DNA of 64,000 bases from Fragilaria crotonensis (Eukaryota > Bacillariophyta > Fragilariophyceae > Fragilariales > Fragilariaceae). The stretch spans positions 124,001-188,000 of the forward strand of contig JAKSYS010000033.1 in NCBI GenBank assembly GCA_022925895.1. The letters run 5' to 3'. The number at the start of each line of letters is the position of its first letter. The first letter of the stretch is position 1. This document shows positions 2,611-54,551 of this stretch, piece after piece. The notes under the pieces are model-generated. The model ran no database searches. It was given only the letters and a program-made list of their open reading frames with translations, and was not told where the DNA came from. The translations under genes and the position numbers were made by a program.

Positions 2611-3308
2611 GTTTTTCAGTATCAGAAGTGACGTTGGTGGGCTTTGGGAGGATGTGAGACTTTCTTTGCTGTGCGCTATTGGCTGATACTCCCAGATTGA
2701 GTAGTAGTCGCATTTGTCAAATAACATTCATTTACTGAATAAACATAGGTACTCCTGCATCAAGCTTTAAGCAGTTCGGATCTATTGTGGATTATATATC
2801 GATCCTTTACGTTCGTCCCTTACAATGCATACTATTAGGCAGTCGAGTAGCTGTACATCTCGTCAAGCACACTCTGGAATTATTCAACTCGAAGGTGACT
2901 CTGCACCTGGTCACGAATACGTCGGTCAAGACCAACAATACGAGCTTTGAGGTCTTTGAATCGACTTGAAATATGCCGATATGTTCACACGGTAGTCTGT
3001 ATGTTGAGCTCATTTTGTAGGATCGCGCACAAAGCAATGGATAAAAATGACGTAAGGTTCGAAAGCAAGCCTAATCCAGCAAAATCGTTGAGGCTTGCGC
3101 TGCATCTCACACTCGGCAAGCAAAGCGTAAAGCAAACAGTATCGTAAAACAAACCAATTGAACATTCTTGTTGTTCCGAGTTGTTGTATGAATCTTCATC
3201 ACTTTTGCTTCACTTCAGGTGTCTAGCAATTGATGTCCTGGAACAAGAATGAGACTGTGTATCGAACGCTTCGTCTCCGACTTCGTGTGATATGAAAAGC
3301 AGTCATTG
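2611..3308. other. Intergenic, no gene seen
   Basis: Lies between the 3' ends of two converging genes (ankyrin and SDR). Only short random ORFs occur. It is AT-richer than the flanking genes, and no repeat was recognised. Confidence 0.55.
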
Positions 3309-4100
3309 TCAAGAAACGTTGAAAGGTTGTTCGTTGATTTGCTTGAAGGCTACTGCATCGTTCAATCCATTTTGGCGCACAATGTCCAACTCATCAACGT
3401 GAAGGTAATGACCAGTAATGTTTGATTCTAAAATGGCAAAGAGACCGTCGACAATAGATTCAGCTGTCCTAACTCCAGATTGGCCATCTGGTTTTGGAAA
3501 AGACAACGTGTTTACACTGCCCGGACTCAGGGAATTGACTTGTATGCCCCTCTCCCTCAATTCTTCAGCCATTGCTGCCGTGAGGCCTTCGAGAGCAAAC
3601 TTGGATGCGACATAAAACGAAATGTCAGGTCGTGCAAGTTTGCCTGCACGTGAGGAAATATTGATGATCCTGCCTCCTGCTTTCATATGCGGTACCACAG
3701 CCGACGTGACACGATGGACTGCAACAACGTTACTGTTCAAGACTCGTAACAAATCGTCCGAGTCCATGGTATCGAATGTTCCCTTGGTGGATTGGGAAAC
3801 ACCAGCATTGTTAATCAAGATATCAATGCCACCCCATTGCGAGACAATGGAATCCACCATGGCATGAACTTGCTCTGAATCATTAAAGTCAGCAACAAGC
3901 TGCAACGGCGTGTGCAAGTGCGGCCCACCCATCTGGATTGCTGTTTCTTGCAACTCACTCGCTGTGCGACTAGTGATGGCAACCTTGGCCCCTGCCTTGG
4001 AGCAAATGATTGCAATCGCTTGGCCGATTCCTCGACCGGCACCTGTTACCACCACGCGCTGACCACCAAGACGTTGATCGAAATCGCATTGGTGAGACAT
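3309..4100 (-). CDS. Short-chain dehydrogenase/reductase (classical SDR), 263 aa
   Basis: NAD(P)-dependent oxidoreductase with a Rossmann fold, of normal length for a classical SDR. The cofactor-binding TGAGRGIG is at residues 19-26, NNAG at 97-100, the structural Asn at 124, the catalytic Ser at 149/150 and YVASK (Tyr163, Lys167) in the expected spacing, so the active site is complete. SLSPGSVNT follows as in the usual PG motif. No signal peptide or membrane span is visible, so a cytosolic enzyme is likely. The sequence is closest in style to 3-ketoacyl-ACP reductase/glucose dehydrogenase-type SDRs, but the substrate cannot be read from it. It is on the same strand as the upstream macro-sirtuin gene, with a 402-bp gap. 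Confidence 0.93.
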   Translation of the reverse strand: MSHQCDFDQRLGGQRVVVTGAGRGIGQAIAIICSKAGAKVAITSRTASELQETAIQMGGPHLHTPLQLVADFNDSEQVHAMVDSIVSQWGGIDILINNAGVSQSTKGTFDTMDSDDLLRVLNSNVVAVHRVTSAVVPHMKAGGRIINISSRAGKLARPDISFYVASKFALEGLTAAMAEELRERGIQVNSLSPGSVNTLSFPKPDGQSGVRTAESIVDGLFAILESNITGHYLHVDELDIVRQNGLNDAVAFKQINEQPFNVS

Positions 4101-4502
4101 GCTGGTGAGAGTTCAAGAGTGATGATGCTTGATGCGAGATGCGAGTGATGATATTGAGAAACATTGCACATGTGTGTCTTAGACGTCCGAGTATTCATCC
4201 TACTGTAGATAAAGTTCTATTGGAACACCTAATATGTTTTATTGCTTTTTGGTATATTTTTAATTAGTTATTTTCAATTATTATATGTATTTTCATGTAT
4301 TTTTTTATCATCGACTGTGATACTGCTGCAGTGCCCCGAGGAGATGGCAATGCAAAGGTAAATTTATTAATAGAACAGCCTACTAGTGCGTTCGTCCTTC
4401 TGAAACTACATTGACTTTGACAGAACATTGTCTTGGGCTTTGATCGGAGCCCGAGAAAGCGCTTCTAATCTTCAAGTCACTCATATCTGCTCCAAAGTTG
4501 AA
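4101..4502. other. Gap between SDR and macro-sirtuin, AT-rich
   Basis: Serves as SDR promoter and 3' flank of the macro-sirtuin gene. About 4200-4310 is strongly AT-rich. I looked on the minus strand for a SECIS-type stem (ATGA, AA loop, GA pair) that could support Sec insertion at the upstream TGA and found no convincing one by eye. Confidence 0.5.
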
Positions 4503-6368
4503 TTAGTCGTCCTTCAACTGTCCCAGCAATGTGTTCCAGTCGAAATGACCAAAGCGAGGAGCAAACCGAAACGACTGCTCATTATCAAGAGTCATACCCT
4601 CAATAGTTTGATGATTCATTACTTCCTCTTTGTCGTCTTCTTCGGCATCACTTGGCGACGATAATTCAATATCATTGAGTACCTGCCATCCTTCGGCAAT
4701 TGCAAGTGCATTCGTTAAATCTGAAGGCACCTCGGGGTCAGTTGGGTTGATGCGGATCAAGTGACCGCGAGAACCAAGCTGACGGGCAAACGATTCGACC
4801 GGGAAGCGAGTCACAGTGGGTGTATTATACCCTGCGCCAACCTCAATAATTACAACTGTGCTATTTGAATCACGATGCGCCTTCATCCAATGACGAAGTG
4901 CGTCGTTCTGCGCCTCGTACTTTCCGTGAAGGAAACTGCTATCGCCGCGAACATTCCCAAAGACATCTCCTCCACAGTACTTGCATGTTGGGATCAAGTG
5001 TTCTGGAATAAAGCCGTCACTGTTAATATGCGGCACGACCGAGTCCAACATGGGGCGGGATTCGAAGACTGCATCCTTACGACACGCCCTCTTGCATTGG
5101 TAATACGTCCACTCTCCCTGAGGAGTATAGATTCGTTCCTTGGCAAATCCGCTACGCTCAAAGCATCAATCAACATTGCTCGTCAAGACGAAATAGTCCT
5201 TCTCATTCACCATATCGAGCAATGTTTTGTATCCCTCATTTGGCTCAAACTGCCAGCGTTGTAGATGCATGTGTTTGGCCCACATGGCCCATTTTGCAGT
5301 CATTGGCACACAACGGTCCTGGCCTAGACCCATCACTTCATAGCTTGTCCTGTAACCCCACTTGACAAACCACGGATAGTGCTTCGCAAAGTCGGTTTGA
5401 TTGACGTAAACCATTTCACCTTCCTTCACAGACATGCCAGAACCAGCACAAATCAAGATTGCATCGGCTTGTTCGATCCACGTCTTGGCAAGGCGCAGCG
5501 TCCTGTCGCGAGTCGACGGCGAAGATGAAGGACAAGAATTGACTCCATCGTCGCCATTTTGCTGCTGCGGGGTACCTAGGTATGCAAGTCTTTTCTGGTA
5601 AAGATCTTCGTCGTTGTCAGAAAACACATTGAAAACTATCAAATCGACCTGGTCAGGATGCGCTTCAAGCCATTCCAAGACCGATGTGACGGCAATATTC
5701 GATGCCTCTTCCTGTGGGAAACCAAAAAGACCAGTGGAAATGCAACAAAAAGCGATTTTTCGAATGCCCTTATCTGCACATTGCTGTAGGCAGCCTTGGT
5801 ATGCAGATGCAAGAAGTTCACGATCAGTCGCTGTCAATCTAGCACCCTTATCAACCTGTGGTCCAGTAACATGAACAACGTAGTCACTGGGTAAGTTGAA
5901 CCCAGGTGTAACAATGGGCGGCGTTCCAGCGTGAAGAGGATAGCCTCTTTGCTCCATGGCAGTTCGACATTCCTCACGAAGACGAGGACCGGCCGCACGG
6001 TGGATGACATTATCAATGCATCGATGCTGTGGTGTGAAGCAACCCAGGCCAGCATCGTTGGCCGCATTGACAATGGCGTCAATCTGGAGAGACGTAATGT
6101 CACCCTTCCAGATTGCCACATGTGTAGTTCCATGAAAAAGTAGACGATTTGGAATGCTTGTCCACGGAATGACCGGACGCCGACGCGAGTGGACTTGATC
6201 GAAGAGGGCCAACTGGTCGTCACTCCATTTGGTATTGGAAGCAATGAGCAAGTCATCGAGAATGTCCCTTTGAGCCTTGAGAGAATCGGGAAGGCGTGAC
6301 ACATCAAAGCGAGGATGATCTTTCTTCAGCACAGCCATCAAGGCAGTTTGAACTTTGGATATATTCAT
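4503..6368 (-). CDS. Zinc-macrodomain / class M sirtuin fusion with an in-frame TGA
   Basis: One continuous reading frame of 622 codons from ATG 6368 to the stop at 4503, interrupted only by TGA at 5166-5168 (codon 401). Residues about 85-265 form a macrodomain: DAIVNAAN, then GCFTPQHRCIDN, the Cys/His pattern of zinc-dependent macrodomains, and CISTGLFGF. Residues about 295-621 form a Sir2 domain (CAGSGMS; SNVD at 397-400; Gln417) with zinc-ribbon pairs QCKRAC and PTCKYC. This macro plus sirtuin pairing is the SirTM class, known as fusions in eukaryotes and operons in bacteria, which add and remove ADP-ribose on protein targets. The TGA sits where the family has the Gly after the catalytic Asp (NVDG). 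Homology resumes at once in the same frame (CFERSGF). It may be a nonsense allele, a sequence error, readthrough or Sec. Without readthrough only the macrodomain and half the sirtuin are made. Confidence 0.88.
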
Positions 6369-7253: not shown

Positions 7254-8872
7254 ATGGTGCTTTCTCCTCCGATCATCCGTTCCGTCATGGGACCAACGTT
7301 GCTGCGCACTGGCGCTCGTCGGTTCAAGTCCCAAAAGGTGCTCACCGAAGATACCATGTCCCAAGCCCTCCGACACATGGAGTATGCCGTCCGAGGTGAA
7401 GTAGTCACTGCGGCGACTCGCTTGCAGCATGAGATCGAAACGGACCCAGCGTCTCATCCTCAGATTGATCATGTTCTTTACACCAATGTGGGAAATCCAC
7501 ATTCCGTGGGTCAAAAATCGCTTCATTGGCCCCGACAAGTTATGGCCTTGTGCAATATGCCAGATGAATTGGGTATTGATCATCCCGATGCTCATCGGAT
7601 CTTTCCAGAAGATGTGATTAAACGTGCCAAGGAGATCAAGCACATGTCCATGCACGATCAAGGCACCGGTGCGTATAGTCATTCCCAAGGGCACTTGGAC
7701 TTTCGAAAGCACATTGCCTCGTTCATTGAAGCCAGAGATGGAGGAGTTCCTTCCAATCCTGATGATATATTCATGACGAATGGTGCTTCGACTGGCATTG
7801 ACATGATTCTGCAAACCCTCTTGGCTGATGAAACATGGTGAGTAGCTGCACACTTCCATTCGGATAGTCGTCAATCGACCAGTTGTGTGCTCACCACGTG
7901 CATCTTCTGATATCCTATTTCTAGCGGTGTCATGATTCCAATTCCGCAGTATCCACTCTATTCTGCAACGATTGCCCTGAAAAAGGCCCACCAAGTCGAC
8001 TACTTCCTCGATGAAGCTAACTGCTGGAGCATGAACATGGATCATCTGGAAGAAAGCTTGGCGAATGCTAGGTCCAAAGGGATCAACGTCAACGGATTCG
8101 TCCTCATCAACCCAGGCAACCCTACTGGCCAGGTCCTTTCTCGTCAGGCCATGCACAATATCGTTGAGTTCTGCGCCAGCCACCAGCTGGTGCTCCTGTC
8201 CGACGAGGTCTACCAAGACAATGTCTACGATGGCGAATTTGTGAGCGCCAAACGAGCCGCCTACGAGACTGGACTGTTGGACAAGGACGCGATCGAGCTG
8301 GTGAGTTTCCACTCCACCAGCAAGGGGCTGTACGGGAATGCGGACATCGTGGCGGGTACATGGAGGTGGTGGGGATGGACAAACGCGTCGAGAGTCATCT
8401 ATATAAGTTGGCATCGGCCTCGCTGTGTCCCAATTTGGATGGCCAAATCATGATGGATTTGATGGTGCGTGGTCCCGATGAGGGAACGGCATCCTATAAA
8501 TCTTACCATGAGCAACGAAAGGAGATTTTCGAATCTTTGAAACGGAAGGCCAAGTTCATGGCGGACAGTTTGAATGCGATTCCAGGGTTCTCATGTCAAC
8601 CCGCTCAGGGGAGCATGTATTGCTTTCCATCCATTGAGTTGCCAGACAAGGCCATCGAGGACGCGAAGCGCCAAAAGCTGGACCCGGATACCTTCTACGC
8701 CATGTCGTTGTTGGAGTCCACAGGTATTTGTGTTGTTCCGGCATCTGGCTTCGGCCAACGAGAAGGACGACATGGCTTTCGTACTACGTTTTTGCCGTCG
8801 GAGCAAGAGATGGCGCGAGCGGTTGGTCTGATTCGTCAGCACCATGAAGAGTTCTGTGCGAGGTACAACTAG
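7254..8872 (+). pseudogene. Alanine aminotransferase copy 1, frameshifted
   Basis: First of two tandem copies. Exon 1 is 7254-7837, a GT-AG intron of 87 bp is 7838-7924, and exon 2 is 7925-8872. It encodes a PLP-dependent class I/II aminotransferase of the alanine aminotransferase type (YTNVGNPHSVGQK, VLINPGNPTGQVLS, DEVYQDNVY, PLP-lysine motif STSKGLYG). Relative to copy 2, one base is missing next to the GGG at about 8333-8336, just after STSKGLYG. Translation then shifts and stops near 8453. The downstream frame remains open and nearly identical to copy 2 up to the shared stop, so the lesion is young or a sequence error. The N-terminus (about 35 residues, basic, Ser/Thr-rich) looks like a mitochondrial presequence and differs strongly from that of copy 2. 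Confidence 0.85.
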
Positions 8873-8939
8873 CGACAAGCAAGCATCCTTATTTCGTGAG
8901 ATGTATGATCATTCCCGAGGGTTGGGCAGATAGTTTGCC

Positions 8940-9390
8940 TTTATAATATCCTACTATATTATAAATTAATTGTGTGCGTGCGTGTGTGCGTGCGTGCGTG
9001 CGTCTGTTACGGAGTATGACCACTCTGGGGTACTGGATCAAATGTTGCACTGTTACGTGGATTACATGTACTACAGGTCTACAGTACATAAACGGACGGT
9101 AATTTATGTTGAAACGACAGTGTGTTACGTTACTGAACTACAATACTGTACGAACATGGAATACTCATTGAATTTGCTGTGAACAGGGAACAGGTTGCTT
9201 GGGCATGATAAGTTCCTGGTACTGTACTTCATGAAGTTTCCTACGTTGGTACCATGGTACTGCATACTGTAGGGGAAAAAAGTAGTGGTACGGAGTACGA
9301 CCAGGTTGGGGGTACTGTACGTCCAGTTTCCTGTAGTAGACACTCCGATCAAATGTGAGGCACCCACTACTAGTATCTTATAATAATGTC
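8940..9390 (+). repeat. Dispersed repeat, copy 1, with (GTGC)n head
   Basis: Begins with a GTGC/GTGT microsatellite (about 8970-9002). It continues TTACGGAGTATGACCACTCT and then about 350 bases shared, with indels, with 15040-15400 in the same orientation. The copies share CTACAGGTCTACAGTACATAA, AATTTATGTTGAAACGAC and a tail near CTCCGATCA.TGTGAGG. It is non-coding. No clear terminal inverted repeats or target duplication were found, so the family is undetermined. The rest of 8873-9698 is promoter and spacer for aminotransferase copy 2. Confidence 0.7.
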
Positions 9391-9698
9391 CTATACGCGG
9401 AGGTTTCCAACATCGGACTGTGCTCTTCGAACCGGAACGGAAATCCCGATAAATATACTACGAGTTTCTTTTCGCGTAAGTTTTCACTCTTTGTAGGCCT
9501 ATTGGTCAAGGACTATTCATTCTGACAAACCGAACCCTGAATGTTACCACGACAGACCAGAAATGCGAACCCACAGAAATTAATCAAGAAAGCAAGATAC
9601 CAATATTCCTACGACACATCAAACATCACAAAAGCAACTCTTTCACATGTGAATGAAGACTTCATTCACCGCAAACAACGTCAACATCGACCACAGCC

Positions 9699-11376
9699 AT
9701 GCTTGTTTTCCCTCCTGTTCTCCGCACTTTTGTGGGATCTGCTGTTCTGCTCTCCGGCACTTGTCGGTTCATGTCCGAAAAGGTGCTCACAGAAGAAACC
9801 ATGTCACAACCCCTCCGTCACATGGAATATGCTGTCCGAGGAGAAGTTGTGACTGAGGCGACTCGCTTGCAGAACGAGATCGAAACGGACCCGGCGTCTC
9901 ATCCGCAAATTGATCATGTTCTTTACACAAATGTGGGAAATCCACATTCAGTGGGCCAAAAATCGCTTCATTGGCCCCGACAAGTCATGGCCTTGTGCAA
10001 TATGCCAGATGAATTGGGAATCGACCACCCCGAGGCGCATCGGATCTTTCCAGAAGATGTGATTCAACGTGCCAAGGAGATCAAGCACATAACGTTGCAT
10101 GACCAAGGAACTGGTGCGTATAGCCATTCCCAGGGTCATTTAGGCTTTCGACAGCACATTGCCTCGTTCATTGAAGCCAGAGATGGAGGCGTTCCTTCCA
10201 ATCCGGATGATATATTTATGACAAATGGCGCTTCGACTGGCATTGATATGATTCTGCAAACCCTCTTGGCTGATGAAACATGGTGAGTAGCTGCACACTT
10301 CCATTCGCGTGGTCGTCAAGCGCCTCCTTGTTCGAGGGCGTGAGGTTTAAGAGGTGCTTGAGCTCACCACCTGCACCCTCTAATGTCCGATCCTCTAATG
10401 TCCGATCCTCTAATGTCCGATTTCTAGCGGAGTCATGATTCCAATTCCGCAGTATCCACTCTATTCTGCCACGATTGCTCTAAAAAATGGTCATCAAGTC
10501 GACTACTTCCTAGATGAAGCTAATGGCTGGAGCATGAACGTGGATCATCTGGAAGAAAGCTTGGCAAATGCTAGGTCCAAAGGGATCAACGTCAACGGAT
10601 TCGTCCTTATCAATCCAGGCAACCCTACTGGTCAGGTCCTTTCTCGTCAGGCCATGCACAATATCGTTGAGTTCTGCGCCAGCCACCACCTGATGCTTCT
10701 GTCCGACGAGGTTTATCAAGACAATGTCTACGATGGCGAATTTGTGAGTGCCAAGCGAGCCGCCTACGAGACTGGTCTATTGGACAAGGACGCGATCGAG
10801 TTGGTGAGTTTCCACTCTACCAGCAAGGGACTGTACGGAGAATGTGGACATCGCGGTGGGTACATGGAGGTGGTGGGGATGGACAAACGTGTCGAGAGCC
10901 ATCTATACAAGTTGGCATCGGCCTCGCTGTGTCCCAATTTGGATGGCCAAATCATGATGGATCTGATGGTGCGCGGTCCCGACGAGGGAACGGCATCCTA
11001 TAACTCTTACCATGAGCAACGAAAGGAGATTTTCGAATCTTTGAAACGGAAGGCCAAGTTCATGGCGGACAGTTTGAATGCGATTCCAGGGTTCTCATGT
11101 CAACCCGCTCAGGGGAGCATGTATTGCTTTCCCGCCATTGAGCTGCCAGACAAGGCCATCGAAGATGCGAAGCGCCAAAAGCTGGACCCGGATACCTTCT
11201 ACGCCATGTCGTTGTTGGAGTCCACAGGTATTTGTGTTGTTCCGGCATCTGGCTTCGGCCAACGAGAAGGACGACATGGCTTTCGTACTACGTTTTTGCC
11301 GTCGGAGCAAGAGATGGCGCGAGCGGTTGGTCTGATTCGTCAGCACCATGAAGAGTTCTGTGCGAGGTACAACTAG
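9699..11376 (+). CDS. Alanine aminotransferase (intact copy 2), 510 aa
   Basis: Exon 1 is 9699-10282, the intron 10283-10427 (145 bp, GTGAGT...TTTCTAG), and exon 2 10428-11376. The junction rebuilds DETCGVMIPIPQYP. The enzyme transfers the amino group between alanine and 2-oxoglutarate using PLP. Visible family marks are YTNVGNPHSVGQ near the start, GTGAYSHSQG, SNPDDIFMTNGAS, LINPGNPTGQ, LSDEVYQDN and the PLP-lysine loop STSKGLYGECGHRGG. Its length agrees with eukaryotic ALTs. The first 30 residues are hydrophobic/basic and acid-free, suggesting mitochondrial or other organellar import. That leader is unlike the one in copy 1, while the C-terminal half is almost identical, so the pair may have been homogenised by gene conversion in exon 2. 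Confidence 0.93.
10377..10421 (+). repeat. 15-bp x 3 tandem repeat inside the aminotransferase intron
   Basis: CCTCTAATGTCCGAT is repeated three times without change directly before the intron acceptor TTTCTAG. It is absent from the matching intron of copy 1 and accounts for most of the intron length difference. Recent slippage is likely. Confidence 0.9.
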
Positions 11377-50948: not shown

Positions 50949-53900
50949 CAGCTGGTTTCACAATCAACCCTCCTGACGTAAGGTGGAGTAACATTTCTAC
51001 AGGTGTACACTAAATTCCATAGTGGATGTCAGCAAATCTCACGACAAGATCCAATCGCACAAACGACCTTCACACAAGAACAAGAATCAGATCAGTTGAC
51101 ACCTTGCATTAACCATGGTGTTCAGATAGCCTCCTCCTCCTCCCTCAACGCCGCCAGCACAAAGCGAGTATCAAAATCTAATGCACACCGATGTGTCCTG
51201 AAATGTTTCATCAGCTTTTCAATCTCCTTGAAGAGAAGCTGCTGTTTTTCAGGAACACAACAAGCAACGTCACCAGGAGGAGCATCGCCATGAGAATTGT
51301 TGCAATTGTCGGTTCTGTTGTTCCCACCTTCAACTTGTGAAAGGTAGTAATATGTGCAAATGTATGCACGTGCTCTTGATGCGAACTTCCTTATCCGTTC
51401 TTTTGTCAGTACAGATTCAGGACATAAGCACTTCATGACAAGATTCATGAAATTGGCTCGCCCTTTTTTTTCACGAATAGGAGTCCTTCGCATTTTTGCC
51501 TTCGCATGAGCCCAGTTATACTCAATCCCTTCGCCGGCAAACTCACAGTGAAACTTCGGTGTAAGCATCACTCTTAATCCTAGTTGAGATCCCAGGTACT
51601 GCAATGCCGTTTCCTCTTGCATGAAGTCCGAGCACTTTGCAATTGCATTGCGAAGTGACATTGACTCGTCAAGAATTCCGGTGATGGGATTTTTCTTCCC
51701 ATTAAGTGTATAGCACGATGTGTTCAATATCTTGTATCCTTCCTTGTCAGTCGATTCCTTGCACTGAGATTTGTCAATCCAACCTCGCTCCCACAAGACT
51801 TGAAGTAATCCCTTTGGCTTCCCAACCCAGCCCTCGGTGATGAAGAATTTTGGCATGTGAGACTTAAACCATGCCGACTTGATATTTCCTTGAGCTCATT
51901 CAATGGGCGATTCGATTCAACTGTTATACCGGCCTCCTCAAAGAGGGCTTTAGCAAGTTCGATTCGAGTTCGTTGTACAATTTTTGAACGACCACCAGTG
52001 TCTGGAGTATCATGTTTTCGTTTGTCGCAAAGCTCGTTTGAGACAAACCACCAAGGACCACGGTCGCCATCCTTGAAGGCCATTGATTGCTCATCGCCAA
52101 TGTTCAAAATGCTTGAAAGGGACCGAGACAACCAGCTTCTATTGTGGAGCATCGCATTTTTGGTTGCACTCCTCCAAAACTACGAGACATGCTATTTGCA
52201 TCGAGTGCCCCATCCTTCTTCCGAGCGTGACCTTGGCTATGGTCGAATAAAAAAACAAAATCGAACTGTGGGCGTAAGTATTGCAAGCAATCAACAGCAT
52301 CTTCGAGCTGAATAGCCATGTGAAAGCTGTTCCAATAGCCGCCTTTGTTGCTCCAATCAGTAAATGTCGAACAAATGGCGATTGTGTCAGAGGCGGCTTT
52401 CGAGTACACTTGTAGACTTCAAGTGCTGCGGTCTTGTCGATATACTCCTTGCCATGACGGATTTCATTGATGGCTGCCAGATTCTCATCACTGATTGGCA
52501 TGCCGAACCCGTATCTCGAGAAACAAACGCGGAGATCATCAGTCCCTCTCCCAGCGATTTTGGCATAAGTCCTCGCTGCTGATTTGGACCAACCCAACTC
52601 TTTGGCGGGAAAAGATATTGTGAAAACACGCTTTCATCTTGGCCGTAGATTTCAATCGGCCTGGAAGGCTTTGGGGCACGAATGCTCATCGAAGGAACTT
52701 TCCCATCCATTATGCCATTGCCATCATTTGCGGTATCAAAGCTGTAGCAATAATCGACATGGAATTCATAACACATCTCACCCTCGCTGTCAATGTAGCT
52801 ATGGCCAAAGGCTGGGTTCAAAATAGAATTCCTCGTTGTCGCTAATTCGCTTGCAGTGAATTGCACCCATCTTAGACACCTCGGTTCGAGCTTGGTTAGA
52901 TAGTCACTACAAAACTGCTCCCGACATGCGATGACATCGCTTCGTTCATGACCGTCCACATAATATCCTTTCTTTTGTGTGTTATACGAAAACCCTAATC
53001 GATGCAGCCATCGCCAGCATGTCGGTATACTAAAATTTCGGATTCCATGTTCAAGCAGAAACATTTCTTGACTTAATGGCTCATGATTCAATCTATCGGT
53101 AGTACCTTCTTCAATGCGGCACTGTTCCATGTCGTCACACCATTGTTTAAATAGTTCTGGTATTAGCTTTTCCAGGCAGAACGAATGCACCAATTCCACC
53201 GTCAATGTTGTTAAATTGCTTAATCCAAAAGCAGTAATCTTTTCTTCCGCTTTCGGGAATCTTAAAAATAAGAGAGGCAAAGGCCTTTTTCCGCATCGAA
53301 CGATATGATTGGGATGTAAAAATGTTCCTCGTTTCCGAAACTCAACATTCCAATCTTGAACGGTCCTACGATGTGTTGCTTGTACCAATCCAAGCTGATT
53401 TAGTTGTTCGCATGCCTTGGTACAACACTGCTGCCAGGTCCATTTATTCATTTGTGCAATGGCAGTTTGGTATGCGAAACACAGAATTATGGCTCGACCT
53501 CGGAGCATGAAGATATCTAATGCTGTGCAAAGATTATCGGGGTCTCTACCCTCAACAACATTTCTCCACCCATTCTGATCTTCGCTCACTGACTTTAAAA
53601 TCTTGATGTGATGCTCCAATGTGTCTTTAGTGTTGTGTCCCTCTTCTCCAAACGCGCGAGCGTTTTGGCCACTGAACAAATTGTATGCTTCCCGACTATC
53701 CCAGTAGGAAAACCTGTCAGCCTGAAAATGAACCGATTCGTCGACCACAATGGCATCTGTACCTAAACTATCCACCACTTCCTGGATGCTACCGGTGCGC
53801 TGACGTTTGTTTGAAGTTGTCTCAGGATGTGTCACGTCACTTGTATTGTTGTCGTGAAATGAAAGCAGCGACAGGATGCTGGGGCTCTTACTGATGACCG

Positions 53901-54551
53901 GGTTGACTGTGTGGCGAGCACATTGTTTGCATTCAAGTGCACTCTCTCCTTCCAATTTGTATCAAGCGGACTTGGATAGGCAACTTGTGTATTTGGATCC
54001 GTAACCAAGTAGTACCACTTCCTCTGAAAGGTCACTCGGAATATTCCAGAATTATTTGTGCCGTCAAATCTTTCCATCAAATGCCCATTAAAATCCAATT
54101 TGCTTCGAATCATTGCCGCATTGAAACTCTTGACATCAATCAAATGCACATCTGCATCAATGAGACCAGATGCTCTCAGGGCTTCGGCCCAAGTCTCTGC
54201 CGGTAGCCACTTCTTCCACACCCTTCGACGAAACATTTCGTCAGCACAGATCTTAACGAAGGCACTCCGAATAATAGCAAATTTATAGCCAGAACTCTTG
54301 AATTGGACTGACTCGTTCATATGGCTGGATACTGAAGGCAATCACCAAGCCCTTTTTCAGCGTCAGTCAGGCCAATTACGCAAGTGTGATCTGCAGTGTT
54401 GTGTCAAATATCATGGTCGAAGCCCTCGTTGCGACCGAGTAAAGTATTTGGATTCGTGACGTCGTTTCACGGTATCTACATGCGAAAGAATATGCTCATG
54501 TACAATTATTACTGCGGCCTACTTCAAGATCCTTGATTGCGTAACCAGCTG
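50949..54551 (-). mobile_element. TA-flanked DNA transposon with DDE transposase, 3.6 kb
   Basis: The left end CAGCTGGTTTCACAATCAA (50949) and the reverse complement of the right end, CAGCTGGTTACGCAATCAA (ending 54551), are inverted repeats with two mismatches in 19. Weaker similarity continues to about 44 bp. TA flanks both ends (50947-50948; 54552-54553). The body is filled by one decayed transposase gene on the minus strand. TA duplications and the DDE core place it near the Tc1/mariner-IS630 group, but the protein (about 1000 residues) is far longer than typical mariner transposases. Confidence 0.85.
51122..54341 (-). pseudogene. DDE-superfamily transposase, several frameshifts
   Basis: The reading order from 54341 is preserved but spread over frames: an N-terminal region (KKWLPAETWAEALRASGL), then ECKQCARHTVNPVISKSPS, a helix-turn-helix-like part (THRRTVQDWNVEFRKRGTF), then the catalytic core. 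Core motifs: IYGQDESVF (first Asp), LMPKSLGEGLMISAFVSR, FVFLFDHSQGHARK (second Asp), FGGVQPKMR, and LTPKFHCEFAGEGIEYNW (third acidic residue). At least four or five frame changes break it (near 53965, 52505, 52400, 52110 and 51850). The D..E layout with FHCE....E..W resembles transposases reported from fungi and other eukaryotes as 'DDE superfamily endonuclease'. The motifs are otherwise well kept, so decay is moderate. Confidence 0.83.

Follow-up and report, generated by a model that had tools for sequence, protein, structure and literature searches.

The locus described here raises the question of how a single in-frame TGA in an otherwise open and conserved gene of the diatom Fragilaria crotonensis is to be understood: as a codon that is decoded, as a genuine nonsense mutation or as a base that the living genome does not contain. 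The gene lies on the minus strand at 4503..6368 of the window, which is the whole stretch of 64,000 nucleotides that was analysed, and comprises 621 codons followed by TAA. As stated in the original prediction, the frame from 6368 to 4503 is open except for a TGA at 5168-5166. This triplet (5166..5168, minus strand) is codon 401 and is the only internal stop found in the assembled sequence of the gene.

A zinc macrodomain and a class M sirtuin in one frame

The proposed identity of the gene as a fusion of a zinc macrodomain and a class M sirtuin, that is as an Mfs1-type gene, is supported by the match to a known structure, by the motifs and by a structure model; transferase activity of the product is a prediction. 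The top PDB match of the frame is 8rsn_A (residues 67-542, E 1.9e-94), which the structure search names as Mfs1, a macrodomain-fused SirTM from Fusarium oxysporum f. sp. cubense race 1. Both Mfs1 domains are encoded in one frame, and it is the sirtuin half that is interrupted by the TGA.

The Macro domain (PF01661, E 2.4e-30) covers residues 100-226 (5691..6071, minus strand). Zn-macrodomains are described as being marked by a Cx4HxC Zn-loop, an NAAN motif and an Asp/His dyad (PMC11490716). All three can be read in the translation, with NAAN at residues 101-104, the Zn-loop formed by C110, H115 and C117 (window 6018-6041) and the dyad D119/H123 within a Dx3H motif.

Before the TGA lie residues 290-400 of the class M sirtuin domain (5169..5501, minus strand), a part that ends with S-N-V-D. 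The rest of the domain (residues 402-565; 4674..5165, minus strand) was delimited by sequence alignments and the structure model, and is followed by an acidic C-terminal tail (residues 566-621; 4506..4673, minus strand) which is mostly of low confidence in the model. Beyond the TGA the translation contains Cys402, Gln417, the zinc-ribbon cysteines C425, C429, C462 and C465 (window 4974-5096), Arg474 and a GAGYNTP loop at 511-517, which agrees with the earlier statement that the 220 downstream codons keep Gln417 and both zinc-ribbon pairs. Class M sirtuins are described as carrying QG where other sirtuins have the catalytic HG, together with the class motif GVGx[NT]TP, a loop that binds pyrophosphate (PMC4518038). 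The diatom protein has Q417-G418, and its G-A-G-Y-N-T-P loop is one residue off the class motif. The Pfam SIR2 model gave no reported match on the sirtuin half.

The structure model was computed for residues 275-621 with Cys as a placeholder at position 401 and has a mean pLDDT of 80.7. At the top of its matches stand 8rsn and the SirTM of Streptococcus pyogenes (5a3a), and the best structural match of the modelled sirtuin half is 8rsn with an E value of 6.5e-20. In the predicted structure codon 401 lies within the Rossmann part, in the loop that connects a strand and a short helix.

With the fungal Mfs1, which is the best match by sequence as well as by structure, the window gene has in common the order of the parts within one frame; it differs in its diatom host, in the TGA at 401 and in the tail of about 56 acidic residues past the aligned part. 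The bacterial SirTM shares with it the Q-G motif, the zinc cysteines and the GxGxNTP loop, but is accompanied by a separate macrodomain gene instead of being fused to it. Class M sirtuins have been described as encoded with a macrodomain nearby (PMC4518038). A macrodomain relative was found on the same strand in the fetched flanks of 65 of the 80 bacterial loci that we used, which are the best 80 of at least 237 loci encoding relatives.

Mfs1 proteins are described so far from fungi and from genera such as Entamoeba and Phytophthora (PMC4518038), and in the literature searched we found no mention of SirTM together with a diatom. What is new is a diatom Mfs1-type gene and not the family, which is already known. 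Should the gene be whole in the living strain, it would add a diatom to the known carriers of the Mfs1 ADP-ribosylation switch. Neither a second copy nor a second allele was found by protein search of the 62.1-Mb genome, which revealed two distant macrodomain relatives only, and no relative was found in viral contigs.

The frame past the TGA and the residue at position 401

The original prediction held that sirtuin homology resumes in the same frame past the TGA, and this is what the comparisons show. The alignments to 8rsn_A and 5a3a_A run without a gap across codon 401, so that an intron spanning the TGA is ruled out. No other frame break occurs in the 1.86 kb of the gene, and the sirtuin frame contains no indel. 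At the base composition of this part, 220 consecutive open codons as found past the TGA would arise by chance with a probability of about 1e-5. Codon use after the TGA is coding-like (0.107 bits per codon, in comparison to 0.093 and 0.112 before it), while the other two forward frames score -0.091 and -0.113 and the antisense 0.029 bits per codon. The frame downstream of the TGA is real.

Decay was assessed in an alignment of 82 homologues, all from outside the diatoms, which consists of the 80 bacterial loci (80 of 80 could be aligned) and the fungal (8rsn) and S. pyogenes (5a3a) structures. The window gene keeps 25 of the 39 columns conserved to at least 90% before codon 401 and 26 of the 46 after it. 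The same count gave 23/41 before and 22/52 after for the fungal enzyme, and 27/40 before and 29/50 after for the S. pyogenes SirTM, where in both rows clipped C-terminal ends are scored as lost. The impression that there is no drift past the TGA is thereby upheld. An old pseudogene is not supported, since 220 codons stayed open and conserved columns survive past the stop about as well as before it; the plain pseudogene with accumulated damage that had been considered is not what is found downstream of the stop. The lack of decay implies that the stop is either recent, or decoded, or absent from the genome.

Residue 401 itself is not strictly conserved. Among the 80 bacterial loci, the best of at least 237 loci, it is His in 72, Gly in three, Ser in two, and Gln, Glu and Tyr in one each; the fungal fusion 8rsn has Gly and the S. 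pyogenes SirTM has Asn. The earlier placement of the TGA at a glycine thus holds for the fungal fusion and three of the loci, but not for the bacterial majority with its histidine. The TGA is one base away from a Gly codon, and two of the three Gly loci use GGA. Trp does not occur at this position in these 80 loci, and Cys is found in none of the 82 homologues (the bacterial part being the best 80 of at least 237 loci). The neighbouring residue 402, in turn, is Cys in 54 of the 80 bacterial loci.

These data bear on the idea of a regulated or leaky readthrough, by which mostly a macrodomain-only hydrolase would be made, while a fraction of the ribosomes would insert a residue and give rise to the full fusion. 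The frame past the TGA has not decayed, and the variability of residue 401 (H, G, S, Q, E, Y and N, with the bacterial residues taken from the best 80 of at least 237 loci) suggests that an inserted amino acid might be tolerated. However, a recent lesion would leave the downstream frame just as intact, a stop at codon 401 was seen in none of the 82 homologues from outside the diatoms, and no positive signal was detected. The base directly 3' of the TGA is a T, and CTA, the best known leaky context, does not follow the stop. We consider readthrough improbable.

A tree of the sirtuin domains, whose rows were 33 of the 82 homologues and the two structures (32 of the 80 bacterial loci, themselves the best 80 of at least 237), groups the diatom with the fungal sirtuin domain. 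The tool flags this grouping as a meeting of long branches. Because of this, and of the partial sampling, we draw nothing from it on a shared origin of the diatom and fungal sirtuins.

Selenocysteine in the host genome and the question of a Sec codon in the sirtuin gene

A selenocysteine (Sec) at the TGA would be placed beside Cys402 on the nicotinamide side of the pocket and would make the transferase selenium- and redox-dependent. The ADP-ribosyl transferase half would then be made only when selenium suffices, the hydrolase half always, and the SECIS element would have to be divergent or distant. Several points speak for such a reading. The number of selenoprotein genes reported for diatoms ranges from 20 to 44 (PMC7539508), Mfs1 and SirTM have been tied to oxidative stress (PMC4518038), and residue 402 is frequently Cys in the bacterial loci (54 of the best 80 of at least 237).

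The host does decode Sec, as had been expected of a diatom. A TGA at the Sec position is present in six genes, which belong to four known selenoprotein families, namely a GPx (L022, NVASQUG), a SelT (L029, CVGUG), a SelM (L032) and three MsrA (L037, L038 and L042, GUFW). The SelM gene lies on contig C548 in tandem with a copy that encodes Cys (L031), about 1.3 kb apart. No tRNA-Sec was found by pattern search, and a search by family gave 10 weak matches (53 of 5073 candidates scored); the eight of these that became loci were assigned by ARAGORN to Leu, Ser, Gly or Arg tRNAs. We attribute the missing tRNA-Sec to a limit of the search, as the presence of the system is evident from the Sec genes.

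In all six Sec genes the motif GAATGAC begins 31-63 nt 3' of the stop codon, an association which is strong but post hoc, as the motif was picked after the flanks had been inspected. It is absent from the 400-nt flank of the Cys-SelM. In the window GAATGAC occurs 10 times on both strands, and 0.0055 occurrences are expected per 70 nt. It is possible that GAATGAC represents the 5' signature of the diatom SECIS. As a motif common to six Sec genes it provides a rapid local check on Sec claims, and this by-product may be more useful than the case at hand.

A fold scan starting at ATGA recovered the GAATGAC site as a candidate in five of the six Sec genes and missed L042; for GPx the best candidate is not the one at GAATGAC. 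Of 150 random 400-nt stretches, 3 reach a score as low as that of the best candidate in the case of SelT, L037 and L038 each, 10 in that of SelM and 15 in that of GPx. The fold scan is not very specific, and most of the random stretches are without a candidate, the same as the flank of the sirtuin gene. A scan for AA-type elements recovered the site in three of the six genes.

With the GPx, SelT, SelM and MsrA genes of the same genome the sirtuin gene shares an in-frame TGA in an otherwise open and conserved frame. In contrast to them it has neither the TGA at a known Sec/Cys position nor the GAATGAC motif, which is absent for 2 kb 3' of the gene. By eye no convincing SECIS had been noticed in the 3' flank, and the scans lead to the same result: in the flank searched (4102..4502, minus strand) no ATGA/GA stem was found over 400 nt with the scan that recovers five of the six Sec genes, and no AA-type candidate is present in 1200 nt after the gene. 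Three overlapping candidates from a laxer early scan were rejected, as they lie 943 nt downstream, within the coding sequence of the following gene. A near-miss, GAGTGAC, begins 21 nt past the stop codon of the sirtuin gene; the fold scan has no candidate there. Rfam reported no SECIS over the window or over 3300-5200, and its SECIS_1 model found none genome-wide (133 of 1211 candidates scored). We set the Rfam result aside, because its SECIS models have no match in L022 or L029 either, which are both true Sec TGA loci.

The near-miss, as well as the fact that the fold scan also overlooks one known Sec gene, may be counted in favour of Sec. The absence of the downstream motif present in all six Sec genes, together with the absence of a Cys homologue at 401, nevertheless makes Sec unlikely, and we regard this option of the original prediction, including the selenium-dependent production of the transferase half, as very improbable.

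Lesions in the assembly and the nature of the stop

It is quite probable that the TGA is a lone lesion which is not decoded, if a nonsense allele and a base error are taken together. How this probability is divided between the two is a matter of judgement and not of calculation.

An assembly base error would mean that the true codon 401 is a sense codon and that an ordinary full-length Mfs1 is encoded. Base-level lesions do exist in the assembly, and they are mostly indels. Two pairs of near-identical contigs differ from each other in the manner of sequencing errors: C703 and C349 (L125, L127) by one mismatch and five gap openings over 1801 columns, C169 and C76 (L128, L132) by two mismatches and six gap openings over 1076 columns. 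Most of these differences affect one or two bases within or next to short runs and look like uncorrected indel errors of the assembly. The silicon-transporter frames L125, L126, L127 and L128 appear broken, and apparent one-base frame breaks are also seen in the GPx gene L025 and in L006; because of this break L006, which is a further sirtuin gene containing an internal TGA, was rejected as a Sec candidate. About 3 kb from the TGA, the first of two tandem aminotransferase copies (7254..8872, plus strand) is disrupted near 8335 by a lone one-base frameshift, a finding that bears either on local sequence quality or on null alleles; the second copy (9699-11376) is 92% identical and without a break. 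On the other hand the TGA requires a substitution, whereas the two contig pairs together show 11 gap openings versus 3 mismatches. Furthermore, no indel is present in 1.86 kb of the sirtuin frame, so that its contig looks better than the transporter contigs. A base error is therefore a serious alternative, but we hold it to be rather unlikely.

The explanation that we tentatively prefer is a lone nonsense mutation, by which the sirtuin half of an Mfs1-type gene that is ordinary in all other respects would have acquired a null allele, either recent or still segregating. With such an allele the TGA would be present in the living genome and translation would stop at residue 400. The truncated product would retain the macrodomain, an ADP-ribosyl hydrolase, as a whole, and would lose Gln417, Arg474, the zinc ribbon and the NAD-pyrophosphate loop of the sirtuin. 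It might still remove ADP-ribose but, because these parts are missing, could presumably not add it. In the S. pyogenes SirTM, mutation of Asn118, Gln137 or Arg192 is described to decrease activity dramatically (PMC4518038), and Gln137 and Arg192 align with Gln417 and Arg474. Candida albicans without mfs1 is reported to grow better in peroxide (PMC4518038); as loss of mfs1 is tolerated there, a sirtuin-null allele could persist. If the stop is real and recent, the eraser would have been parted from the writer, and the strain would provide a natural one-gene test of the writer under oxidative stress.

One control counts against the nonsense allele. Stops were found in 18 of 138 kinase rows, and none of the nine stop-bearing rows that were inspected contains a lone nonsense codon; all nine look like introns or exon edges. 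The TGA is thus somewhat unusual as a random lesion, although a TAA at a conserved Gln does occur in one silicon-transporter-like pair.

Some further observations were made along the way. The last 210 or so bases are identical in both aminotransferase copies (window 7254-11376), which suggests gene conversion. At 51122-54341 on the minus strand the window contains a chain of overlapping frames which possibly belong to a single gene with multiple frame breaks; Pfam gave no match on the four frames of this chain that were scanned. That the genome belongs to a diatom is borne out by its silicon transporters, for which 18 of 19 rows are above the family cut-off. The silicon-transporter-like genes L128 and L132 have, on both contigs, a TAA at the conserved Gln of the GRQ motif, a case of the substitution type. 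Contig C771 encodes two silicon-transporter domains in a frame of 1008 codons, and C97:29749-33762 encodes three of them in a single open frame of 1456 codons.
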